Positions 37,142 through 52,085 of a DNA stretch of 52,085 bases are shown piece by piece. Location of the stretch: IMG/VR virus record IMGVR_UViG_3300047446_000276, positions 1 to 52,085 of that record. The stretch is one strand, 5' to 3'. A program made the position numbers and the translations under genes. Source of the DNA: a virus. The notes under the pieces are model-generated. The model was not told where the DNA came from, searched no databases, and saw only the letters and a list, made by a program, of their open reading frames with translations. Positions within the stretch are counted from its first letter, which is position 1; each line of letters starts with the position of its first letter.

Positions 37142-37231
37142 GACTCTCCGCCCAAATAAAGGGATGCCTGTATGCTAGAGGAAAGGAACACCTTTTTGCA
37201 AGGTGAAAGGCTGGCCTTTATTGTCGCGGGC
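37142..37231. promoter_or_regulatory. Divergent Cro/CI promoter-operator region
   Basis: Plus strand: TTGCAA (37196-37201), 17 bases, TATTGT (37219-37224), then the CI ATG at 37232. The same palindromic TTGCAA read on the minus strand can act as -35 for Cro with TAGCAT about 18 bases on. A 6-bp dyad cacctt-tttgc-aaggtg covers 37189-37205. The motif AATAAAGG occurs at 37155-37162 (plus) and 37215-37222 (minus); it recurs twice at the left promoter near 39955 and 39980. Confidence 0.6.
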
Positions 37232-37879
37232 ATGGAACTTAAAGATCGTCTAAAGCAAGCCCGGAAACATGCGAATCTGACTCAGTCAGAGCTGGCAGAG
37301 CGCGCGGGGATAAAACAGGCCTCAATCTCAGAAATAGAGCGGGGGTTGACCAGAACGAGCGGATACCTCGTGAAGCTTGCCACCATTCTTGAGGTCAGTC
37401 CGGTTTGGTTGTCCGAAGGGATTGGGTCAATGCTTGCCAGCGACCAATCCAACGTAGAGCCAGGCCCTCCTATAACTACTGCGGCTCGAAGGATCGACAT
37501 CATGGGCACCGCGCAGATGGGCCCGGACGGGCATTGGGTAGGCCTCGAGGACGCTGGAGGCTGGGTTGAAACCTGGTCCCGCGACACCGATGCTTACGCC
37601 CTACTGCTCCGCGGCGACTCGATGGCACCAGCGATCCGCAGCGGCTGGGTGGCTGTGTGCGAGCCAAATCACAGGCTCGTGCCAGGCGAATACGTGATGG
37701 TTACGACAGTCGATGAGCAGAGCATGGTCAAGGAGCTGCTGTTTCAGAACGATGAGGGCGTGAGCCTGATGTCGATCAACTCTGCGTACGAGCGGGTGAC
37801 GATCCCATGGACGAAGATACAGACGATCCACTATGTAGGTGCCATTCTCGGGCCTAGCAAAGTACTGGGCAGAATTTAG
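37232..37879 (+). CDS. cI: CI-type repressor with S24 peptidase domain
   Basis: A 215-aa repressor that maintains lysogeny. Residues about 5-65 are a helix-turn-helix (L-T-Q-S-E-L-A-E-R-A-G-I-K-Q-A-S-I-S), then a linker, and from about 85 the LexA-like peptidase with Ser130 in R-G-D-S-M and Lys167 in M-V-K-E. The usual Ala-Gly cleavage pair is not at the expected place: the sequence there is M-G-T-A-Q-M-G. The ATG at 37232 lies only 7 bases behind the -10, so the mRNA is probably leaderless. It is followed by the HipA-like gene. Confidence 0.92.
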   Translation: MELKDRLKQARKHANLTQSELAERAGIKQASISEIERGLTRTSGYLVKLATILEVSPVWLSEGIGSMLASDQSNVEPGPPITTAARRIDIMGTAQMGPDGHWVGLEDAGGWVETWSRDTDAYALLLRGDSMAPAIRSGWVAVCEPNHRLVPGEYVMVTTVDEQSMVKELLFQNDEGVSLMSINSAYERVTIPWTKIQTIHYVGAILGPSKVLGRI

Positions 37880-37943: not shown

Positions 37944-38687
37944 ATGCCTTTGAGCATTACAGCTGTAGAGATAATCAGACAAAGCCAGCAAGGTTATTCG
38001 ATCAAGCCTTTTATCGTCCGAGGCGACGACGGGTTTACCTATTTCGTGAAGGGACTAGCTAAGGCTGGCGGTCCCGCCCTCATCTCGGAGGTATTAGGTG
38101 CAGAGCTGGGCGGAATGTTAGGCCTTCCGATACCACCTTGGGGTTTGATGCATATCCCAGAGGAGCTGATAGCGTTTAGTGCAATTCCCAATGTCGGAGA
38201 TCTGAGAGGCGGGACAGCATTTGCCTCACGAGCAGTCGAAAACGCCTCTGACTTTGTGCTTAGCCATATCGACCGAACACCTATCGAACTGCGCCGCCGG
38301 GTTTTGCTATTCGACTGGTGGGTCCGAAATGGCGATCGCTGCTTAGGTGAGCGTGGTGGCAACGTCAACCTGATCCTCGACGCGAGGGGAGAATTGGGCG
38401 TTATTGATCACAACCTCGCATTTGACCGAGCCTTTGACTGCGACGATTTTATCGAGGGGCACGTTTTCCGAGAGTGCAGGTCCTTCTTTAGGGACTATGT
38501 TGTTCGTCAGGAATACGTCCAAATGCTTGGCGAGACCCTGGAAATATGGGATACGATCACGGCCCTTTTACCTGAAGACTGGCTATATCGGGACGCCGAC
38601 AATATTGACCTCACCGAGCCTACCGTGGCTGAAAGGCTAGCGATGCTGGAAGTGTTCAAGGAAGAGCGGTTCTGGGGAGCATTATGA
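37944..38687 (+). CDS. HipA-like kinase domain protein (HipA_2 type)
   Basis: A 247-aa protein that is about half the length of HipA. It keeps kinase-like landmarks: Lys36 in Y-F-V-K-G-L, N-G-D-R (129-132) with Asp131 as candidate catalytic base, N-V-N (140-142), and V-I-D-H (153-156) with Asp155 as metal ligand. The substrate of related small kinases is not known to me; HipA itself phosphorylates glutamyl-tRNA synthetase. There is no HipB-like gene next to it; its partner is the DUF3037 gene, overlapped by 4 nt. Its place behind CI means expression in the lysogen. Confidence 0.82.
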   Translation: MPLSITAVEIIRQSQQGYSIKPFIVRGDDGFTYFVKGLAKAGGPALISEVLGAELGGMLGLPIPPWGLMHIPEELIAFSAIPNVGDLRGGTAFASRAVENASDFVLSHIDRTPIELRRRVLLFDWWVRNGDRCLGERGGNVNLILDARGELGVIDHNLAFDRAFDCDDFIEGHVFRECRSFFRDYVVRQEYVQMLGETLEIWDTITALLPEDWLYRDADNIDLTEPTVAERLAMLEVFKEERFWGAL

Positions 38688-39520
38688 AATATATCTGTAA
38701 CTACTCGATTTTGCGGTTTTTGCCTTACCCAGAAACAGGCGAGTTTGTGAACATTGGCATCGTTCTAGTTGCCAATAACGGCGACTTTCGCTTCAAAATC
38801 GAGAAAAAAAGGCAGCGCATCACCAATTTCTTCCCGAGCCTTGATTCGAAAATTCTGATTCGCGCGCGAAATGAAGTAGAGCGTGAGCTTGACCGCTTAA
38901 GCGGCTTTTTCACCGCTAACCGGGACGACGTCACGACGTTGCTGGGCGCGTTTCAGCATCTCACTCATCCTCGTGAGACGATGATGAGGTTCAGCGATCC
39001 TGGCACTCTCGCGACTGACAACTCGAACGATGCGCTAACCAGGCTTTTCGATCACTACGTCAACCATAGTTTTGCCACGAAGGAATACCAGGAAACTCAA
39101 CTTGAACGCCAGTTGGGTAAACTGCTGACGTCATACAACCTCAAGCAGCGGTATACGGAGCAAAAACTTGGTACCGCGGACTATCCGGTTAAATTCCCGT
39201 TCGTCATGATGCTGGGAGCCTCACCAATCCAAGCGCTTAAGCCTCTCCACTTGGGTCACGACGAGTCTTCAAAGATCATCGAGCATGGGGACGCATGGAT
39301 CTCGAAGATGAGACGCTTGAACTCCGCCGGTCAATTGGCGCAGGACACGCTTTTTGTTGCAGGTCCTCCAGAGCAAGGCAAACCGAAGCTCCTCAAGGCG
39401 TACCGGGAGATCTGCGAAGAGCTCAAGCAATTCCCTGGCGTAAGGGTCACTAGCACTGCGGAAAGCCGCTCGACTCTGCTCCATCAGATTCAGATAGGTC
39501 TTCCTGATACTGTCCACTGA
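38684..39520 (+). CDS. DUF3037 protein, partner of the HipA-like kinase
   Basis: A 278-aa soluble protein of the DUF3037 family: the N-terminal Y-S-I-L-R-F-L-P-Y-P-E-T-G-E-F-V-N-I-G-I-V-L-V is its hallmark; the middle is helical with R-A-R-N-E-V-E-R-E-L and the C-terminus beta-like. DUF3037 genes are commonly found next to HipA-like genes. ATG overlaps the kinase stop by 4 nt, so the two are translated together. A terminator follows within 11 bp. It could be the regulator, substrate or toxin of the pair; the sequence does not decide. Confidence 0.85.
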   Translation: MKYICNYSILRFLPYPETGEFVNIGIVLVANNGDFRFKIEKKRQRITNFFPSLDSKILIRARNEVERELDRLSGFFTANRDDVTTLLGAFQHLTHPRETMMRFSDPGTLATDNSNDALTRLFDHYVNHSFATKEYQETQLERQLGKLLTSYNLKQRYTEQKLGTADYPVKFPFVMMLGASPIQALKPLHLGHDESSKIIEHGDAWISKMRRLNSAGQLAQDTLFVAGPPEQGKPKLLKAYREICEELKQFPGVRVTSTAESRSTLLHQIQIGLPDTVH

Positions 39521-40518: not shown

Positions 40519-40953
40519 ATGTTAGGCAAATTGTTTGGCAAGAAATCTGGTCAGGCCCGTGCTGCCGTTTCCAAGCTGGCGAACCGCGATTTGATGGAGG
40601 CTGTGGTCTACGGCGCAATTTACGTGGCCGCCGCCGACGGCGATCTCGAAGACGTTGAGCTGCAGAAGGTCGAAACAATCCTGAGCAACAACCCGGCGCT
40701 GCAAGGCTTCGGCGCCGAGCTGTCCAACACCATCGACCGGGCAAAGACCGACTTCAAATCCGGTCCGCGCATTCTTCGCCAGAACGCCGAGAAAGAACTG
40801 AGCGACCTCGCTCACAGCCCGCAAGAAGCGCTGACCGTGCTCAACGTGATGCTGACCGTGGCCGAAGCCGACGGCGAAATCGAAGACGCTGAGCTGAAAG
40901 CCCTGGAGCGCAGCGCCAAGCTGTTGGGCCTGAACCTGAAAGACAATCTGTAA
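40519..40953 (+). CDS. TerB-like protein
   Basis: A 144-aa helical protein with two TerB-type acidic loops: A-A-D-G-D-L-E-D-V-E-L and A-E-A-D-G-E-I-E-D-A-E-L, each followed by a helix. TerB-family proteins are linked to tellurite resistance and phage inhibition in bacteria; in phages the role is unknown. It is the first recognised gene of the early left operon, starting at ATG 40519. Confidence 0.85.
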   Translation: MLGKLFGKKSGQARAAVSKLANRDLMEAVVYGAIYVAAADGDLEDVELQKVETILSNNPALQGFGAELSNTIDRAKTDFKSGPRILRQNAEKELSDLAHSPQEALTVLNVMLTVAEADGEIEDAELKALERSAKLLGLNLKDNL

Positions 40954-42097: not shown

Positions 42098-42442
42098 ATG
42101 GAAAAGACAGCAGCCGCGAAACACTCGGCGGCGTATCGCGAACGGCAGAACACCATCAAAGCGAAGATGGGAATCGAAGTGATGAAGATCGAGGCGCCTG
42201 CGGGCACACGGTCAGGCATCAGCACAGCGATGAAGGATCACGGCTACAGCCAGATTCAGGAACTGTGGCAGGACTTGGCGCTATCGTTCCTGGCAGCGCC
42301 CCGCGAAGAACAGGCGCGCCGATTGAGAAAGCCTGACGCGTCAGCTTTCGTAGTGACGCCAAGGCTGGCGCGTCATTATCTCGAGAAAGCTCAGTCTGAG
42401 TTAGCTTCGAATCCAGGCGACGAAATTATTGCTCCCAGATAA
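42098..42442 (+). CDS. Hypothetical early protein (114 aa)
   Basis: A basic helical protein: K-H-S-A-A-Y-R-E-R-Q at the start, then A-G-T-R-S-G-I-S-T-A-M-K and helix L-W-Q-D-L-A-L-S-F-L, ending N-P-G-D-E-I-I-A-P-R. The middle could be a ribbon-helix-helix-like DNA-binding region, but I cannot assign it. GGAGAAACACCTA precedes the ATG. Confidence 0.65.
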   Translation: MEKTAAAKHSAAYRERQNTIKAKMGIEVMKIEAPAGTRSGISTAMKDHGYSQIQELWQDLALSFLAAPREEQARRLRKPDASAFVVTPRLARHYLEKAQSELASNPGDEIIAPR

Positions 42443-42800
42443 ATCCAACTCTGTAAGCGGTCGCACCTATTTTGGGTAGCGCAACCAACAGAAAGCTAAG
42501 TTGCGAGACATGCTGAACCAAGTTCACTTTGTCGCCGCTGTCTGTCACCCCAGTAAACGAAAGAAGTGAGGGCGGTGAGTAGCCAACACCTTGGACGTGG
42601 ATAGTGATGGAGTTGCCAAAGCTCACCAGCCTTGCACCAATCTCATGCTCACTATCCAGATCTTCCTCGAACTTTTTGACATACTTCCCAAGCGATTCAA
42701 AAGCAGCCACCACAGGGTTGTCTCTACGAAAATCGATATCCGCTTTCAGCTGCATCTGATCGAGCATTGATTGCATCGCATTGTGACCGTCAAAACTCAT
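42426..42800 (-). CDS. DUF6173 family protein, minus strand in the early left operon
   Basis: A 124-aa protein with the DUF6173-like pattern: F-E-S-L-G-K-Y-V-K-K-F-E-E-D-L-D-S-E-H-E-I-G-A-R-L-V-S-F-G and L-V-Q-H-V-S-Q-L-S-F-L-L. ATG at 42800 follows AAGGAGTG, a good site. Its 3' end overlaps the preceding plus-strand gene by 17 bp. The opposite orientation implies its own promoter and possible expression in the lysogen. Confidence 0.8.
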   Translation of the reverse strand: MSFDGHNAMQSMLDQMQLKADIDFRRDNPVVAAFESLGKYVKKFEEDLDSEHEIGARLVSFGNSITIHVQGVGYSPPSLLSFTGVTDSGDKVNLVQHVSQLSFLLVALPKIGATAYRVGFIWEQ

Positions 42801-42903
42801 ATTCACTCCTTGACCCGGCCCCATGCCGGTCACCACGTATAGCCCACCACCAACCTATTCGCCACCGAACTTTCGGAGGCTTTCGAATGCGTGGAGCATT
42901 TCT

Positions 42904-43476: not shown

Positions 43477-43755
43477 TCATCCTTCGCTCTCTCGGTGCTT
43501 GGAAATATTGCGATACCCTCCCTGCACCATGCGGCTTAGCTGGTATTCCTCCCGGATCTGCGCAATGAGGTCGGAAATAAACCTGATAGACGTCAGGTCG
43601 GACACCGGGATACCTGGCACCGTCATGCCAATCTCATGGGTATCGGGATCGATCAATTGAATTGTCATGACTCTCGTCGGGGAAATGCTGCAAATGCATT
43701 TCACTGGCAAAAAACCTGACTCGACGATGTGTCGCAGCTCCAAATCGGAAATCAT
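43477..43755 (-). CDS. DUF1652 family protein
   Basis: A 92-aa protein with the DUF1652 pattern: M-I-S-D-L-E-L-R-H-I-V-E-S-G-F-L-P, then a beta part with M-T-I-Q-L-I-D-P, and I-R-F-I-S-D-L-I-A-Q-I-R. This family is usually a chromosomal Pseudomonas protein of unknown function. ATG at 43755 is chosen because the family starts M-I-S-D-L-E. It is in opposite direction to the operon and is flanked by 29-bp imperfect direct repeats. Confidence 0.8.
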   Translation of the reverse strand: MISDLELRHIVESGFLPVKCICSISPTRVMTIQLIDPDTHEIGMTVPGIPVSDLTSIRFISDLIAQIREEYQLSRMVQGGYRNISKHRESEG

Positions 43756-43861
43756 CTCTGTGCCCTTAATGCGTGGGTGTATAGAGACGACAAAACCCGC
43801 CACTTGGCATTCGCCCTAATGGACGAGTGGTCAGAAATTACCAGACGACCCAACCATGCCG

Positions 43862-44466: not shown

Positions 44467-46560
44467 ATGTCTGCACATCAGAAGAAACGCCCCTTCGATT
44501 TCAAAACGCAGTACGGCCTTGGCTTCGACCCGCAAGACGATGAGATCGTCGTGGACTTCTTCTGCGGTGGTGGCGGCGCCGGTACCGGGCTGGAGATGGG
44601 CTTGGGTCGCAAGGTGAACGTGGCGAAGAACCACAGCGCCAAGGCGATCAGCATGCACACCATCAACCACCCGGGCGCCAAGCACTTCACCACCGACGTG
44701 TTCGAGGGTGATCCGGATACGGAGTGCGGGGGCAAGGCGGTCGGCTGGTTCCATATGAGCCCTGACTGCACCCACCACAGCCAGGCAGCCGGCGGACAGC
44801 CGCGTAAGCGGGAGATCCGCAACCTGTCGTGGATCGGTTTGAAGTGGGGAGGCAAGAAGAAACCCCGCGTAATCAGCCTGGAAAACGTGAAGCAGATCCT
44901 GCAGTGGGGCCCGCTGATCGCCAAGCGCGACAAGGCGACCGGGCGCGCCATCAAGTTGGTGACGGTCCTGAATGCCAAGGGTAAGGAGGTCATCGAGAAG
45001 GTTGTCGCCGAGCCTGGAGAGGTTGTCCCCGTCGGCCAGCAGTTTCTGGTGCCTGACCCAAAACGCCGCGGCACTACGTGGCGCCGGTTCGTACAGTTAC
45101 TGGAAGGCATGGGCTATGCCGTCGAGTGGCGTGTCATCAAGGCTTGCGACTTCGGCGCTCCAACCAGCCGGGAACGCCTTTTCATGATCGCCCGCTGTGA
45201 TGGTCAGCCGATCGTGTGGCCGGAGCCGACCCACGCCAAGAAGCCCTGCAAGGGCCAGCACAAGTACCGAACCGCCGCCGAGTGCATCGACTTCAGCGAT
45301 CTGGGAAAAAGCATCTTCGGGCGCAAGGATGAACTGGCCGACGCCACCAAGCGCCGCATCGCCAAGGGTATGAAGAAGTTCGTCATCGATAACCCGGCGC
45401 CGTTCATTGTGCCGATCGCGAACTGGTCAACCGAGACGGTTCAATCGTTGGATGAGCCGCTGCGCACAATCACGTCATTTCCGAAAGGCGGTTCGTTCTC
45501 TGTCGTCAGCCCAGTGATCGCGCCAGCAACGCACCAAGGCAGCGACCGCATTAACGATCCGCTCGAACCGCTGCCCACCGTGACCTGCGCCAACCGCGGC
45601 GAACTGACATTGATCAGCCCTACCCTCGTGCAAACGGGTTACGGGGAACGCGATGGCCAGCAGCCGCGTACGCAGGATCTGGATCAGCCTCTCGGAACTG
45701 TAGTCGCCGGAGGCGTGAAACATGCTCTTGCCGCTGCGCACCTGGTCAAATTTCGATTCGACGATGAAGGCAAAGCGCTGGACGAACCGCTGCCGACCAT
45801 CACCAGTGGTGGCAACTACCAGCGTCCCGCCGGTGCCGCGCACGCCATGGGCATCGCGACTGCATTCATGGCGCAGATGAACGGCGGGTTCAACACCACC
45901 GACGCAAAAAGCCTCAACGATCCGATGACCACGGTGACGAACACCGGCAGCCAGCAGCAGCTGGTTACCGCCAGCCTCCTGCATCTGCGCGGCAACTGCG
46001 ACGCCCGGGCGGCAGATGAGCCCCTGCATACCGTCAGTGCCGGCGGAACGCACCACGGCCTAATGACTGCCTTCATGGAACGGCAGTTCGGCGCCAGCGT
46101 CGGCCAGGCACTGACCGACCCATCGCCGACGATCACGGCCGGTGGTGGCGGAAAGAGTTCGCTGGTCAGCTTTGAGCTTTCGCCCGAGCATGAAGAAGGC
46201 GCGCTGCGCGTTGCTGCGTTCCTGATCAGCTATTACGGCACCGAGAACATGAGCAGCTGCGATCAGCCGGCGCCCACGATCACCACAAAGGACCGACTCG
46301 GTCTGGTCACCGTCATGGTCAAGGGCACGCCCTATGTGATCGTCGACATCCGCCTACGCATGCTGCAACCGGCCGAGCTGTACCGGGCGCAGGGCTTCCC
46401 GCCTGATTACATCATCACGCACGGCGCCGACGGCAAACCGTTCACGAAGACCGAGCAGGTCCACATGTGCGGTAACAGCGTCAGCCCGCCGCCAATGGCC
46501 GCCCTCGCCCGCGCCAACGATCCATGGCGCGCTGCTCAACGCCAGGCCGTAGCCGCCTGA
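44467..46560 (+). CDS. C5 cytosine DNA methyltransferase with repeat-rich target-recognition region
   Basis: A 697-aa methyltransferase expected to add a methyl group to C5 of cytosine from S-adenosylmethionine. Motif I is D-F-F-C-G-G-G-G (30-37); motif IV is S-P-D-C (98-101) with Cys101 as nucleophile, where most enzymes have P-P-C; motif VI is L-E-N-V (138-141); motif VIII is S-R-E-R-L (234-238); the end has Q-G-F-P (642-645) and C-G-N-S-V (668-672). About 300 residues between VIII and IX carry eight copies of D-x-P-L-x-T-[IV]-[TV]. No endonuclease is next to it, so it may protect phage DNA or act as orphan. Confidence 0.9.
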   Translation: MSAHQKKRPFDFKTQYGLGFDPQDDEIVVDFFCGGGGAGTGLEMGLGRKVNVAKNHSAKAISMHTINHPGAKHFTTDVFEGDPDTECGGKAVGWFHMSPDCTHHSQAAGGQPRKREIRNLSWIGLKWGGKKKPRVISLENVKQILQWGPLIAKRDKATGRAIKLVTVLNAKGKEVIEKVVAEPGEVVPVGQQFLVPDPKRRGTTWRRFVQLLEGMGYAVEWRVIKACDFGAPTSRERLFMIARCDGQPIVWPEPTHAKKPCKGQHKYRTAAECIDFSDLGKSIFGRKDELADATKRRIAKGMKKFVIDNPAPFIVPIANWSTETVQSLDEPLRTITSFPKGGSFSVVSPVIAPATHQGSDRINDPLEPLPTVTCANRGELTLISPTLVQTGYGERDGQQPRTQDLDQPLGTVVAGGVKHALAAAHLVKFRFDDEGKALDEPLPTITSGGNYQRPAGAAHAMGIATAFMAQMNGGFNTTDAKSLNDPMTTVTNTGSQQQLVTASLLHLRGNCDARAADEPLHTVSAGGTHHGLMTAFMERQFGASVGQALTDPSPTITAGGGGKSSLVSFELSPEHEEGALRVAAFLISYYGTENMSSCDQPAPTITTKDRLGLVTVMVKGTPYVIVDIRLRMLQPAELYRAQGFPPDYIITHGADGKPFTKTEQVHMCGNSVSPPPMAALARANDPWRAAQRQAVAA

Positions 46561-49927: not shown

Positions 49928-50743
49928 ATGTCTGTAGACAATCTTCAAGCATTGAAAGAGCTGGCTGAGGCTGCTCCACCTGGCCCGTGGATAAACGAAA
50001 ACGACTCCCTGTACTTCAAAGATGACGGCTATACGCGGCACCTGCTGGATGCTGATTCAGGTAGCGATGTCGAGGAAGGCTCCTATTACGCAGCGCTCAA
50101 GTTCATTGCAGCCGCCAACCCTGCCGCAGTGTCGGAGATGATTAAAGAAGTAGAGCGCGGCCAGCGTATGCTCGTTGCTGCATGCCAAGACCTTGGCGCA
50201 ATCGGCGAAGCTCTAGGCGCTGACATGGACGACGACGGAGACGCATTGCTTGGGATGGTCAACGACCTGAAACAGAATTATCTGGCTGCCAGAGACAGGA
50301 AGAATTCGATCACGGCCTTGAAGGCTGAAAACAAAGCATTACAAGAAGATCTGGTCACGTTCAAAGGAGGGATATCAGCTCTTGGTGAGGCATGCAAGAA
50401 GCTCACATTCTGCGCACGCACCTCTGGGGGGATCGCTGGTCCTGATACTGGTCTGATGGAGGCTTGCGACTCTGCAGAGAAAGCTCTATCGCTTGTTGGT
50501 GTGTCGCGTGCAATCGACTACATCGAGGGCCTCAAGTCCGAGAATGAGGCGCTGCGTAAGGACGCGGAGCGGTATCGGTGGACAAGCATCGAAGGCAACT
50601 GGGTTGCTCGCATGTTCGGCAAGTGGCGCGCTCACGTCGGCGAGTATGGCGATGCTTCGCCTACTGACTGGTACGCAACTCGCGAAGAGGCCATTGACGC
50701 CGCAATGGCTCATGAAGCAACCCAGCCACTCAACCCCGCATAG
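49928..50743 (+). CDS. Ea22-like phage protein (271 aa)
   Basis: A 271-aa protein with the Ead/Ea22 layout: an N-terminal L-K-E-L-A-E-A-A-P-P-G-P-W, then F-I-A-A-A-N-P-A-A-V, and a long coiled coil with two A-L-K-A-E-N-K-A-L-Q type segments (about 125-150 and 205-225) and a C-terminal W-Y-A-T-R-E-E-A. GAGG lies 7 bases before ATG 49928. In lambdoid phages such genes occur between xis and the early-left region; function is unclear. Confidence 0.85.
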   Translation: MSVDNLQALKELAEAAPPGPWINENDSLYFKDDGYTRHLLDADSGSDVEEGSYYAALKFIAAANPAAVSEMIKEVERGQRMLVAACQDLGAIGEALGADMDDDGDALLGMVNDLKQNYLAARDRKNSITALKAENKALQEDLVTFKGGISALGEACKKLTFCARTSGGIAGPDTGLMEACDSAEKALSLVGVSRAIDYIEGLKSENEALRKDAERYRWTSIEGNWVARMFGKWRAHVGEYGDASPTDWYATREEAIDAAMAHEATQPLNPA

Positions 50744-50760
50744 ACCCCCCGAGGTATCCA

Positions 50761-50973
50761 ATGAAGCGCGAACTGATCAAGATCAGCGAGTTTCAACGCC
50801 GGCGCTGGGGCGAGAACGGCACACCGCCCTGCCCCCAGGCAATCCGCAACTACATCCGAGACGGCAAGCTTCCGGGCGAGCAGATCGGGAAACTTTGGTA
50901 TATCGACTGGGCCGCTTTCAACAAGTCGGCCGGCAACGAACTCGTCGCGATGGTATTGAAAGGAGCTGCATGA
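50761..50973 (+). CDS. xis: Excisionase
   Basis: A 70-aa winged-helix protein: I-S-E-F-Q-R-R-R-W, P-Q-A-I-R-N-Y-I-R-D-G-K-L-P-G-E-Q-I-G-K-L-W-Y-I-D-W, the typical phage Xis pattern. It directs integrase towards excision. Its stop overlaps the integrase start (ATGA). GAGGTATCCA precedes ATG 50761. Confidence 0.88.
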   Translation: MKRELIKISEFQRRRWGENGTPPCPQAIRNYIRDGKLPGEQIGKLWYIDWAAFNKSAGNELVAMVLKGAA

Positions 50974-52085
50974 TGGTCCCACGGCCGCGCAACAAGTCGA
51001 ACAAAGGCTTGCCGCAGAACCTGTACCTGGACGACCGGCGCGGCACGTACCGGTACCGGAGACCCACGGATGGGAAGTGGTTCCAGTTCGGGACCGACCG
51101 GGTGAAGGCGGTAGACGCGGCGAAGCAGCTGAACCTGGCATTCATGCAGGGCGCCGACCTGGTTGGTGCTGTGCTGGGCGAATCACCTGAGCTGTTCACC
51201 ACGTTCCTCGATGACTACGAACAGAAAGTGCTGCCGCCGCGCGAGCTCTCCAAAGGGACACTCGGGCTGTATGCCGTGCACTTTCGCCGGTTCCGCAAGC
51301 AGTTCGAAGGGAAAGCAGTGGATCAGATATCGATCCGCATGGTGGCCGAGATGCTGGACGGGGCGACGCCGCGGACTGCCAACCAGTGCCGGGCGCTGCT
51401 GATCGACATCTTCAATCACGCCGCCGCCAAGGGCCTGTGTCCGGACAACCCGGCGACCAGCACCATCAGCCGTATCGAGAAAAAGACCCGCAAGCGCCAC
51501 ACGGTCGAGGGACTCAAGGCCATACGCGAGAAATCACCTGTTTGGCTGCAGAATGCCATCGACCTGGCACTGATCACTGCGCAGCGCCGCACCGACATCG
51601 TCGCGATGAAGTTCGAGGACGTGAAGGATGGCTTCCTGTACGTGGTCCAGCAGAAAACGGCCAAGGCCAGCGACGCCGCATGGATTCGGTTCAGGGTCAC
51701 GCCGCAGCTGCAGCGAGTCATCAGCAAGTGCCGCGACAACATCGCCTCGCCATTCCTGGTGCACCGCCGGCCAGATCGTAAAAAGCAGAAGCAGGCGGAA
51801 ACGAAAGAGCACTGGACCAAGATCGAGGAACGCTACCTGACCCGGGCGTTCAAGGAGGCCAGAGAGACGGCGGATTGTTACAAGGGCTGGAAGGAAGAAG
51901 AGATGCCGGGCTTCCACGAAGTCAGGGCGCTGTCGCTGCACCTGTACAAGAAAGCCGGAAAGGATGGGCAGAGGATCGCGGGGCACGCCAGCGAGGAGAT
52001 GACGAAAAACTATCAAAAGGAGCATGCCGAGGTGGTTTGGTCAGACGCCGTTCCGGACCTCGATATCAGCGAAATCGCAGGATAG
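50970..52085 (+). CDS. int: Prophage integrase (lambda-type tyrosine recombinase)
   Basis: A 371-aa integrase. The N-terminus has an arm-binding region (N-L-Y-L-D-D-R-R-G-T-Y-R-Y-R-R-P), the core domain covers about 75-165, and the catalytic domain has Arg206 in T-A-Q-R-R-T-D, Lys229, His316/Arg319 in F-H-E-V-R, His339 in G-H-A-S and Tyr348 in K-N-Y-Q-K. It ends at the last base of the window, so the adjoining attachment site is outside. It is coupled to xis by a 4-nt overlap. Confidence 0.93.
   Translation: MMVPRPRNKSNKGLPQNLYLDDRRGTYRYRRPTDGKWFQFGTDRVKAVDAAKQLNLAFMQGADLVGAVLGESPELFTTFLDDYEQKVLPPRELSKGTLGLYAVHFRRFRKQFEGKAVDQISIRMVAEMLDGATPRTANQCRALLIDIFNHAAAKGLCPDNPATSTISRIEKKTRKRHTVEGLKAIREKSPVWLQNAIDLALITAQRRTDIVAMKFEDVKDGFLYVVQQKTAKASDAAWIRFRVTPQLQRVISKCRDNIASPFLVHRRPDRKKQKQAETKEHWTKIEERYLTRAFKEARETADCYKGWKEEEMPGFHEVRALSLHLYKKAGKDGQRIAGHASEEMTKNYQKEHAEVVWSDAVPDLDISEIAG

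Follow-up and report, generated by a model that had tools for sequence, protein, structure and literature searches.

A temperate phage cytosine methyltransferase with eight putative target-recognition modules from a widely shared, exchangeable pool

In temperate Bacillus phages, several target-recognition domains can occur in tandem within one C5-methyltransferase, which protects against several restriction systems (PMC12707154, PMC8936443). In SPR, phi3T, SPbeta MtbP and M.H2I, motifs VIII and IX of a single catalytic core enclose several consecutive recognition domains. These multispecific Bacillus phage enzymes are orphans of temperate phages, and their presumed use is anti-restriction. M.HhaI and M.HaeIII have the same catalytic fold and motif order with one recognition domain, whose two loops surround a T-[LI] hinge (loops: PMC4090504). 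Other m5C enzymes are described as having relaxed specificity. Published descriptions state that JCM7686_0772 and JCM7686_2655 of Paracoccus give partial protection of many sites, that ARM81mr_p29 and ARM81ld_p31 of Aeromonas are also called relaxed, and that phi2LM21_p23 is inactive in E. coli (the latter two statements: PMC5537653). Pyei1 is about 69% identical to the Paracoccus enzymes (PMC6536676). The phage methyltransferase described here is related to the relaxed enzymes by homology and appears to resemble the Bacillus phage enzymes in how it works.

The window (the whole stretch of DNA analysed, 52,085 nt) is a temperate phage with a lambda-like tail. It encodes a CI/S24-type repressor, CII-like and Rha/KilAC-type regulators, a terminase, a major head protein, a tape measure protein and a tail tip protein, as well as an integrase. 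The nearest phage records are mostly Pseudomonas phages, with DNA similarity in short patches only; a Pseudomonas host is therefore likely. Features outside the module array are located in the window as follows.

37172-37879, CI/S24-type repressor gene
44467-46560, plus strand, C5-cytosine DNA methyltransferase gene, 697 aa, stop codon included in the coordinates (ORF, Pfam, PHROG)
44467-45393, plus strand, N-terminal catalytic part, residues 1-309, with motifs I-VIII and a Foldseek match to the catalytic fold
46315-46557, plus strand, C-terminal catalytic part, residues 617-697, with motif IX at 631-644 and motif X at 669-675
50493-52085, integrase, at the right end of the window

The methyltransferase gene is surrounded by genes for hypothetical proteins, Ead/Ea22 and the integrase, with an HNH_3 gene 2 kb downstream, and no restriction endonuclease gene was recognised beside it among the annotated neighbouring genes. 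Because no recognised restriction gene adjoins it, the methyltransferase is taken as an orphan; a restriction-modification pair was rejected, as there is no restriction partner next door. Just upstream, on the minus strand, are genes for DUF6173 (42426-42836) and DUF1652 (43477-43803) proteins. Further upstream (37944-39520, plus strand), a HipA_2-type kinase gene (PF20613) and a DUF3037 gene have a 4-base overlap and directly follow the CI/S24-type repressor gene; this pair is possibly a toxin-antitoxin system or a lysogeny-borne defence. The product of 40519-40953 (plus strand) matches PHROG 632, annotated as tellurite resistance, and may be encoded by a moron gene.

Identification of the 44467-46560 product as a C5 methyltransferase, proposed in the initial annotation, is confirmed by family matches and motif order. 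The ORF is preceded by a GAGGA sequence, and the 697-aa protein matches Pfam PF00145 (C-5 cytosine methylase) in three stretches (E=7e-24) and the phage DNA methyltransferase families PHROG 116 and PHROG 23072. Motifs I (residues 30-37), IV (98-101), VI (ENV, 139-141), VIII (T233-R237), IX (R631-F644) and X (669-675) occur in the usual order. Motif IV is indeed SPDC rather than PPC, and its predicted catalytic residue, Cys101, is invariant in the family alignment. However, SPDC is not peculiar to this protein: 384 of 419 relatives have SPDC and the other 35 have SPEC. These relatives were chosen for SP[DE]C, yet every locus in a set of 401 also had SP[DE]C. Cytosine C5 methyl transfer by the window protein is putative, by analogy with relatives for which activity has been reported.

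Structure prediction with AlphaFold2 gave a good model of the catalytic domain within a whole protein of mean pLDDT 58.6, and Foldseek matched catalytic domains to plant MET1, DNMT1, CmoX, M.HaeIII and M.HhaI. In the repeats (residues 320-620, for which the initial annotation had suggested structure prediction), pLDDT was mostly below 50, and one predicted strand recurs in most modules at low confidence. A relative with two modules (L280) reached a mean pLDDT of 76.8, again with a good catalytic domain but with its first module below 50. Both models establish the catalytic fold only. Over the catalytic domain, the best structural match of this two-module relative is CmoX (PDB 8YF3), a DNA cytosine carboxymethyltransferase with an SPPC motif and a diagnostic Arg350 that reads GC (PMC12783734). 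Membership of the CmoX class was rejected for the window protein on the basis of motif IV (SPDC versus SPPC).

Target-recognition domains in C5-methyltransferases are located between motifs VIII and IX, and this is where eight repeats had been reported in the window protein. An iterated profile of the module, built from relatives, finds exactly eight modules there, with hinge threonines at 334, 371, 411, 444, 489, 522, 555 and 604. The repeat positions first reported are correct to about 2 residues, and their spacing, given as about 32-48, is 33-49 when measured from hinge to hinge. The strict pattern D-[EQ]-P-L-x-T-[IV]-[TV], proposed for all eight repeats, holds at 329, 406 and 439, but the remaining five read LEPLPTVT, NDPMTTVT, DEPLHTVS, TDPSPTIT and DQPAPTIT. 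The regular expression D-x-P-x-x-T-[VI] has five matches compared to a mean of 0.016 in shuffled sequences (maximum 2 in 10,000 shuffles); this recurrence is not due to chance. Mutual identity among the eight modules is just 22-38%, and their types form the string J-G-B-C-H-L-D-A.

45394-45504, plus strand, module 1, type J, residues 310-346, hinge T334 (profile, clustering)
45505-45615, plus strand, module 2, type G, residues 347-383, hinge T371 (profile, clustering)
45616-45735, plus strand, module 3, type B, residues 384-423, hinge T411; P, U or Q here in close relatives
45736-45834, plus strand, module 4, type C, residues 424-456, hinge T444 (profile, clustering)
45835-45969, plus strand, module 5, type H, residues 457-501, hinge T489 (profile, clustering)
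45970-46068, plus strand, module 6, type L, residues 502-534, hinge T522; preceded by an extra S in some relatives
46069-46167, plus strand, module 7, type D, residues 535-567, hinge T555; in the alignment, SPbeta MtbP has its first recognition domain here
46168-46314, plus strand, module 8, type A, residues 568-616, hinge T604; in the alignment, SPbeta MtbP has its C-terminal recognition domain here

All modules have a common hinge, P-x-x-T-[IV], flanked by two blocks. Positions -20 to -8 and +4 to +9 relative to the hinge are conserved within types and differ between types, whereas positions -7 to +3 are largely common to types or vary regardless of type. Because these residues also entered the module clustering, part of the block effect's size is built in; what is informative is how the blocks differ from the hinge. 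From an alignment by eye, we take Thr250 of M.HhaI to be the hinge equivalent. If this holds, the M.HhaI recognition loops (233-240 and 252-258; PMC4090504) lie at -17 to -10 and +2 to +8, matching the module blocks. The module profile alone matched no PDB chain and no Pfam family, nor any solved or curated recognition domain. It also gave no match to the M.HhaI sequence.

Multispecific enzymes of Bacillus phages are useful for comparison with this array. The alignment of SPbeta MtbP with the window protein runs from module D via A to motif X and has 28% identity across 136 residues (E=3e-5 as a single comparison). Two hinges lie between motifs VIII and IX in SPbeta (SPTLTT, EPAFTVN) and three in SPR (SPTITT, SHTLSA, EPAFTVN), counts that omit other T-[ILV] pairs outside the P/x-x-T-[ILV] context. 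We take the specificities of SPbeta to be two, GGCC and GCNGC, and those of SPR to be three, GGCC, CCGG and CCWGG; in both enzymes, hinges and specificities are then equal in number. GGCC should accordingly be read by the C-terminal domain that SPbeta and SPR share. Module A resembles that domain, yet types W and V score higher, and GGCC as the target of module A is a guess. The window protein is outside the SPbeta-group sequence family, as similarity is local only and motif IV differs (GFPC in SPbeta and GSPC in SPR, compared to SP[DE]C in the window family). SPbeta and SPR also have two or three domains, while members of the window family have 2-10 modules; M.HhaI and M.HaeIII have PC in motif IV and one recognition domain compared to eight. 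With eight tandem modules of presumed recognition function between motifs VIII and IX, the window protein may work like the SPbeta-group enzymes without being a close member. A "hypothetical" protein of Bacillus phage SPbetaL3 (L464, 101-1630) is an SPbeta/SPR-type methyltransferase. Its recognition region between motifs VIII and IX has 293 residues, compared to 193 and 222 in the SPbeta and SPR enzymes; thus, the classical multispecific enzymes also differ in domain number.

The alignment of type A with the SPbeta C-terminal recognition domain could also mean that only this last module recognises DNA and that the others are adaptors, for example for binding host proteins or for blocking restriction enzymes directly. 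Type A is the family's commonest last module (last in 118 of 183 architectures), which would agree with such a role. However, module D likewise aligns with an SPbeta recognition domain, the layout of hinge and two blocks is common to all modules, and tested relatives protect several unrelated sites, which makes recognition by module A alone very unlikely.

The window protein belongs to a large family. Used as a query, it finds similar proteins in 279 phage records, 246 plasmid records and 473 viral contig stretches, with hosts ranging from Proteobacteria to Firmicutes, Actinobacteria and Cyanobacteria. The module census included 419 distinct complete proteins from the fetched loci, which contain 2,681 modules (2-10 each, mostly seven or eight) in 183 architectures. 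At the working cut-off, average-linkage clustering sorted the module cores into 100 types, with 42 to 146 obtained across a wide range of cut-offs. About 47 types are shared by three or more architectures, and further types keep appearing as sampling grows. Both orders were seen for 55 of the 213 type pairs that co-occur in four or more architectures. For the modules of the window protein, the best matches of the same type in phages whose catalytic part is only about 50% identical are 51-76% identical and often have other positions in the row; for type L, this comparison gave a same-type match in nearer relatives only.

Repetition of types is nearly absent from these arrays. Among modules between the first and the last (internal modules), no type was repeated within any of the 419 proteins, compared to 170-271 repeats expected by shuffling (cut-offs 0.50-0.66). 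After thinning to 138 proteins with less than 90% catalytic identity, there were zero repeats compared to 66 expected, and the thinned set without first and last modules gave zero repeats compared to 56.6 expected. At the coarsest cut-off (0.70), there were three internal repeats compared to 301 expected. Counting end modules as well gives zero repeats for cut-offs of 0.58 and below, then six at both 0.62 and 0.66 and ninety at 0.70. Loss of duplicates by recombination could be partly behind the missing repeats, but it should affect mainly copies that are nearly identical. It would leave unexplained the lack of co-occurrence even between diverged members of the same type.

With tandem units of about 35 residues, the array is reminiscent of modular DNA readers, and the initial annotation had proposed long targets as well as several targets. 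If the modules jointly read one long site, at one or a few bases each, types would need to be repeated, but no internal type occurs twice in one protein. In addition, a one- or two-base code would require far fewer types than about 100, arrays in this single family range from 2 to 10 modules, and the relatives that have been tested protect several short sites. A single long target is scarcely credible on this comparative evidence and was dropped. Recognition of several targets is well supported at the sequence level by module types, shuffling, non-repetition, exchange, selection and the SPbeta/SPR hinge counts, together with the broad protection by relatives.

Exchange of modules can be followed among close relatives. 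Those with arrays that start with J and end with D-A have twelve architectures, which differ by whole modules. Slot 3 is the main point of difference (B, P, U, Q, BP or UB), and an S module is optional ahead of L. One relative (L015) has U in place of B, with 79-94% DNA identity in the remaining gene; in another (L013), the B module is 53% identical, while the adjoining G and C modules are 77% and 90% identical. Close relatives swap or insert whole modules in frame, as cassettes. The dN/dS ratios of all eight modules are 0.008-0.13, compared to 0.034 for the catalytic parts; all eight are under purifying selection, and therefore none is decaying.

Some relatives have distinctive gene neighbourhoods. 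In phage F116 (L082, 2150-5867), a cytosine methyltransferase with the string J-B-G-Q-C-H-R-A is encoded with an annotated adenine methyltransferase gene on either side; the genes overlap at their ends and form a three-methyltransferase cluster. In the unrelated phages Flotzy (L086, 680-3944) and RR1-A (L404, 615-3181), the methyltransferase overlaps an annotated phosphoadenosine phosphosulfate reductase gene. This overlap could point to an additional DNA modification, or the reductase gene could simply be a frequent neighbour in phages.

Enzymes described as relaxed are part of this family. ARM81mr_p29 and ARM81ld_p31 are matches of the window protein with five modules each (K-D-F-E-A), while Pyei1_p05 has eight modules and phi2LM21_p23 has six. 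The window protein is placed with the relaxed enzymes by homology and module architecture, using the ARM81 enzymes and, standing in for the Paracoccus enzymes, Pyei1. The module strings of these enzymes differ from that of the window protein, and the descriptions consulted contain no module model. A row of discrete modules is a natural explanation for their apparent sloppiness. This account was not found in the part of the literature that could be searched.

Relaxed relatives with many partly protected sites could also indicate that the repeats form a general DNA-binding scaffold of broadly relaxed specificity, whose single modules have no target of their own. The low-confidence fold of the repeat region is in keeping with this view, and the Paracoccus enzymes' partial protection could be explained equally well by sloppy recognition and by many weak modules. 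However, a scaffold would not be expected to have two type-specific blocks per module or discrete types kept across phages with diverged catalytic parts. Copies of one good unit would serve a scaffold, yet internal types are not repeated. We consider a scaffold unlikely.

The preferred reading, to which we assign a probability of roughly three in four, is that the window protein is an orphan phage multispecific anti-restriction C5-methyltransferase with a combinatorial array of target-recognition modules. The array is modular, non-repeating and exchangeable, and it corresponds to the recognition region of SPbeta and SPR. In this model, the linear array of eight modules would serve one catalytic core (motifs I-VIII and IX-X). 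Each module of 33-49 residues would recognise its own short DNA site through two type-specific loops flanking the P-x-x-T-[IV] hinge. The modules would take turns in docking DNA at the common active site, for attack by Cys101 on the flipped-out cytosine. Methylation of many different sites would allow the phage to evade many host restriction enzymes with one protein, and the array would evolve by gain, loss and exchange of whole modules from a phage-wide pool. It is probable, by inference, that each module has one site, that the role is anti-restriction and that the window protein is active. In published work, relatives protect several different sites. Points against this reading are the low-confidence AlphaFold2 models of the repeats, the module profile without a recognition-domain match, and the inactivity of phi2LM21_p23 in E. 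coli.

Multispecific phage enzymes with tandem domains are known; in our judgement, the array size, the pool of about 100 types across phyla and their shuffling are new. Nothing comparable to a pool of about 100 interchangeable types across phyla was found described in the portion of the literature that could be reached. We lean towards the broader view that this is a phage-wide combinatorial system, in which at least about 100 interchangeable types, each for one restriction-type site, are combined, as many as ten in a row, on a shared methyltransferase core. If so, the module string of a phage could reveal which restriction enzymes it evades, and modules could be reused to build methyltransferases of chosen specificity. 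The module model makes testable predictions and offers a structural reason for the "relaxed specificity" of phage m5C enzymes, which would be decodable from module string to protected sites. It would also provide a large natural set of short C5 recognition modules, and it would show that anti-restriction evolves through exchange of recognition cassettes.
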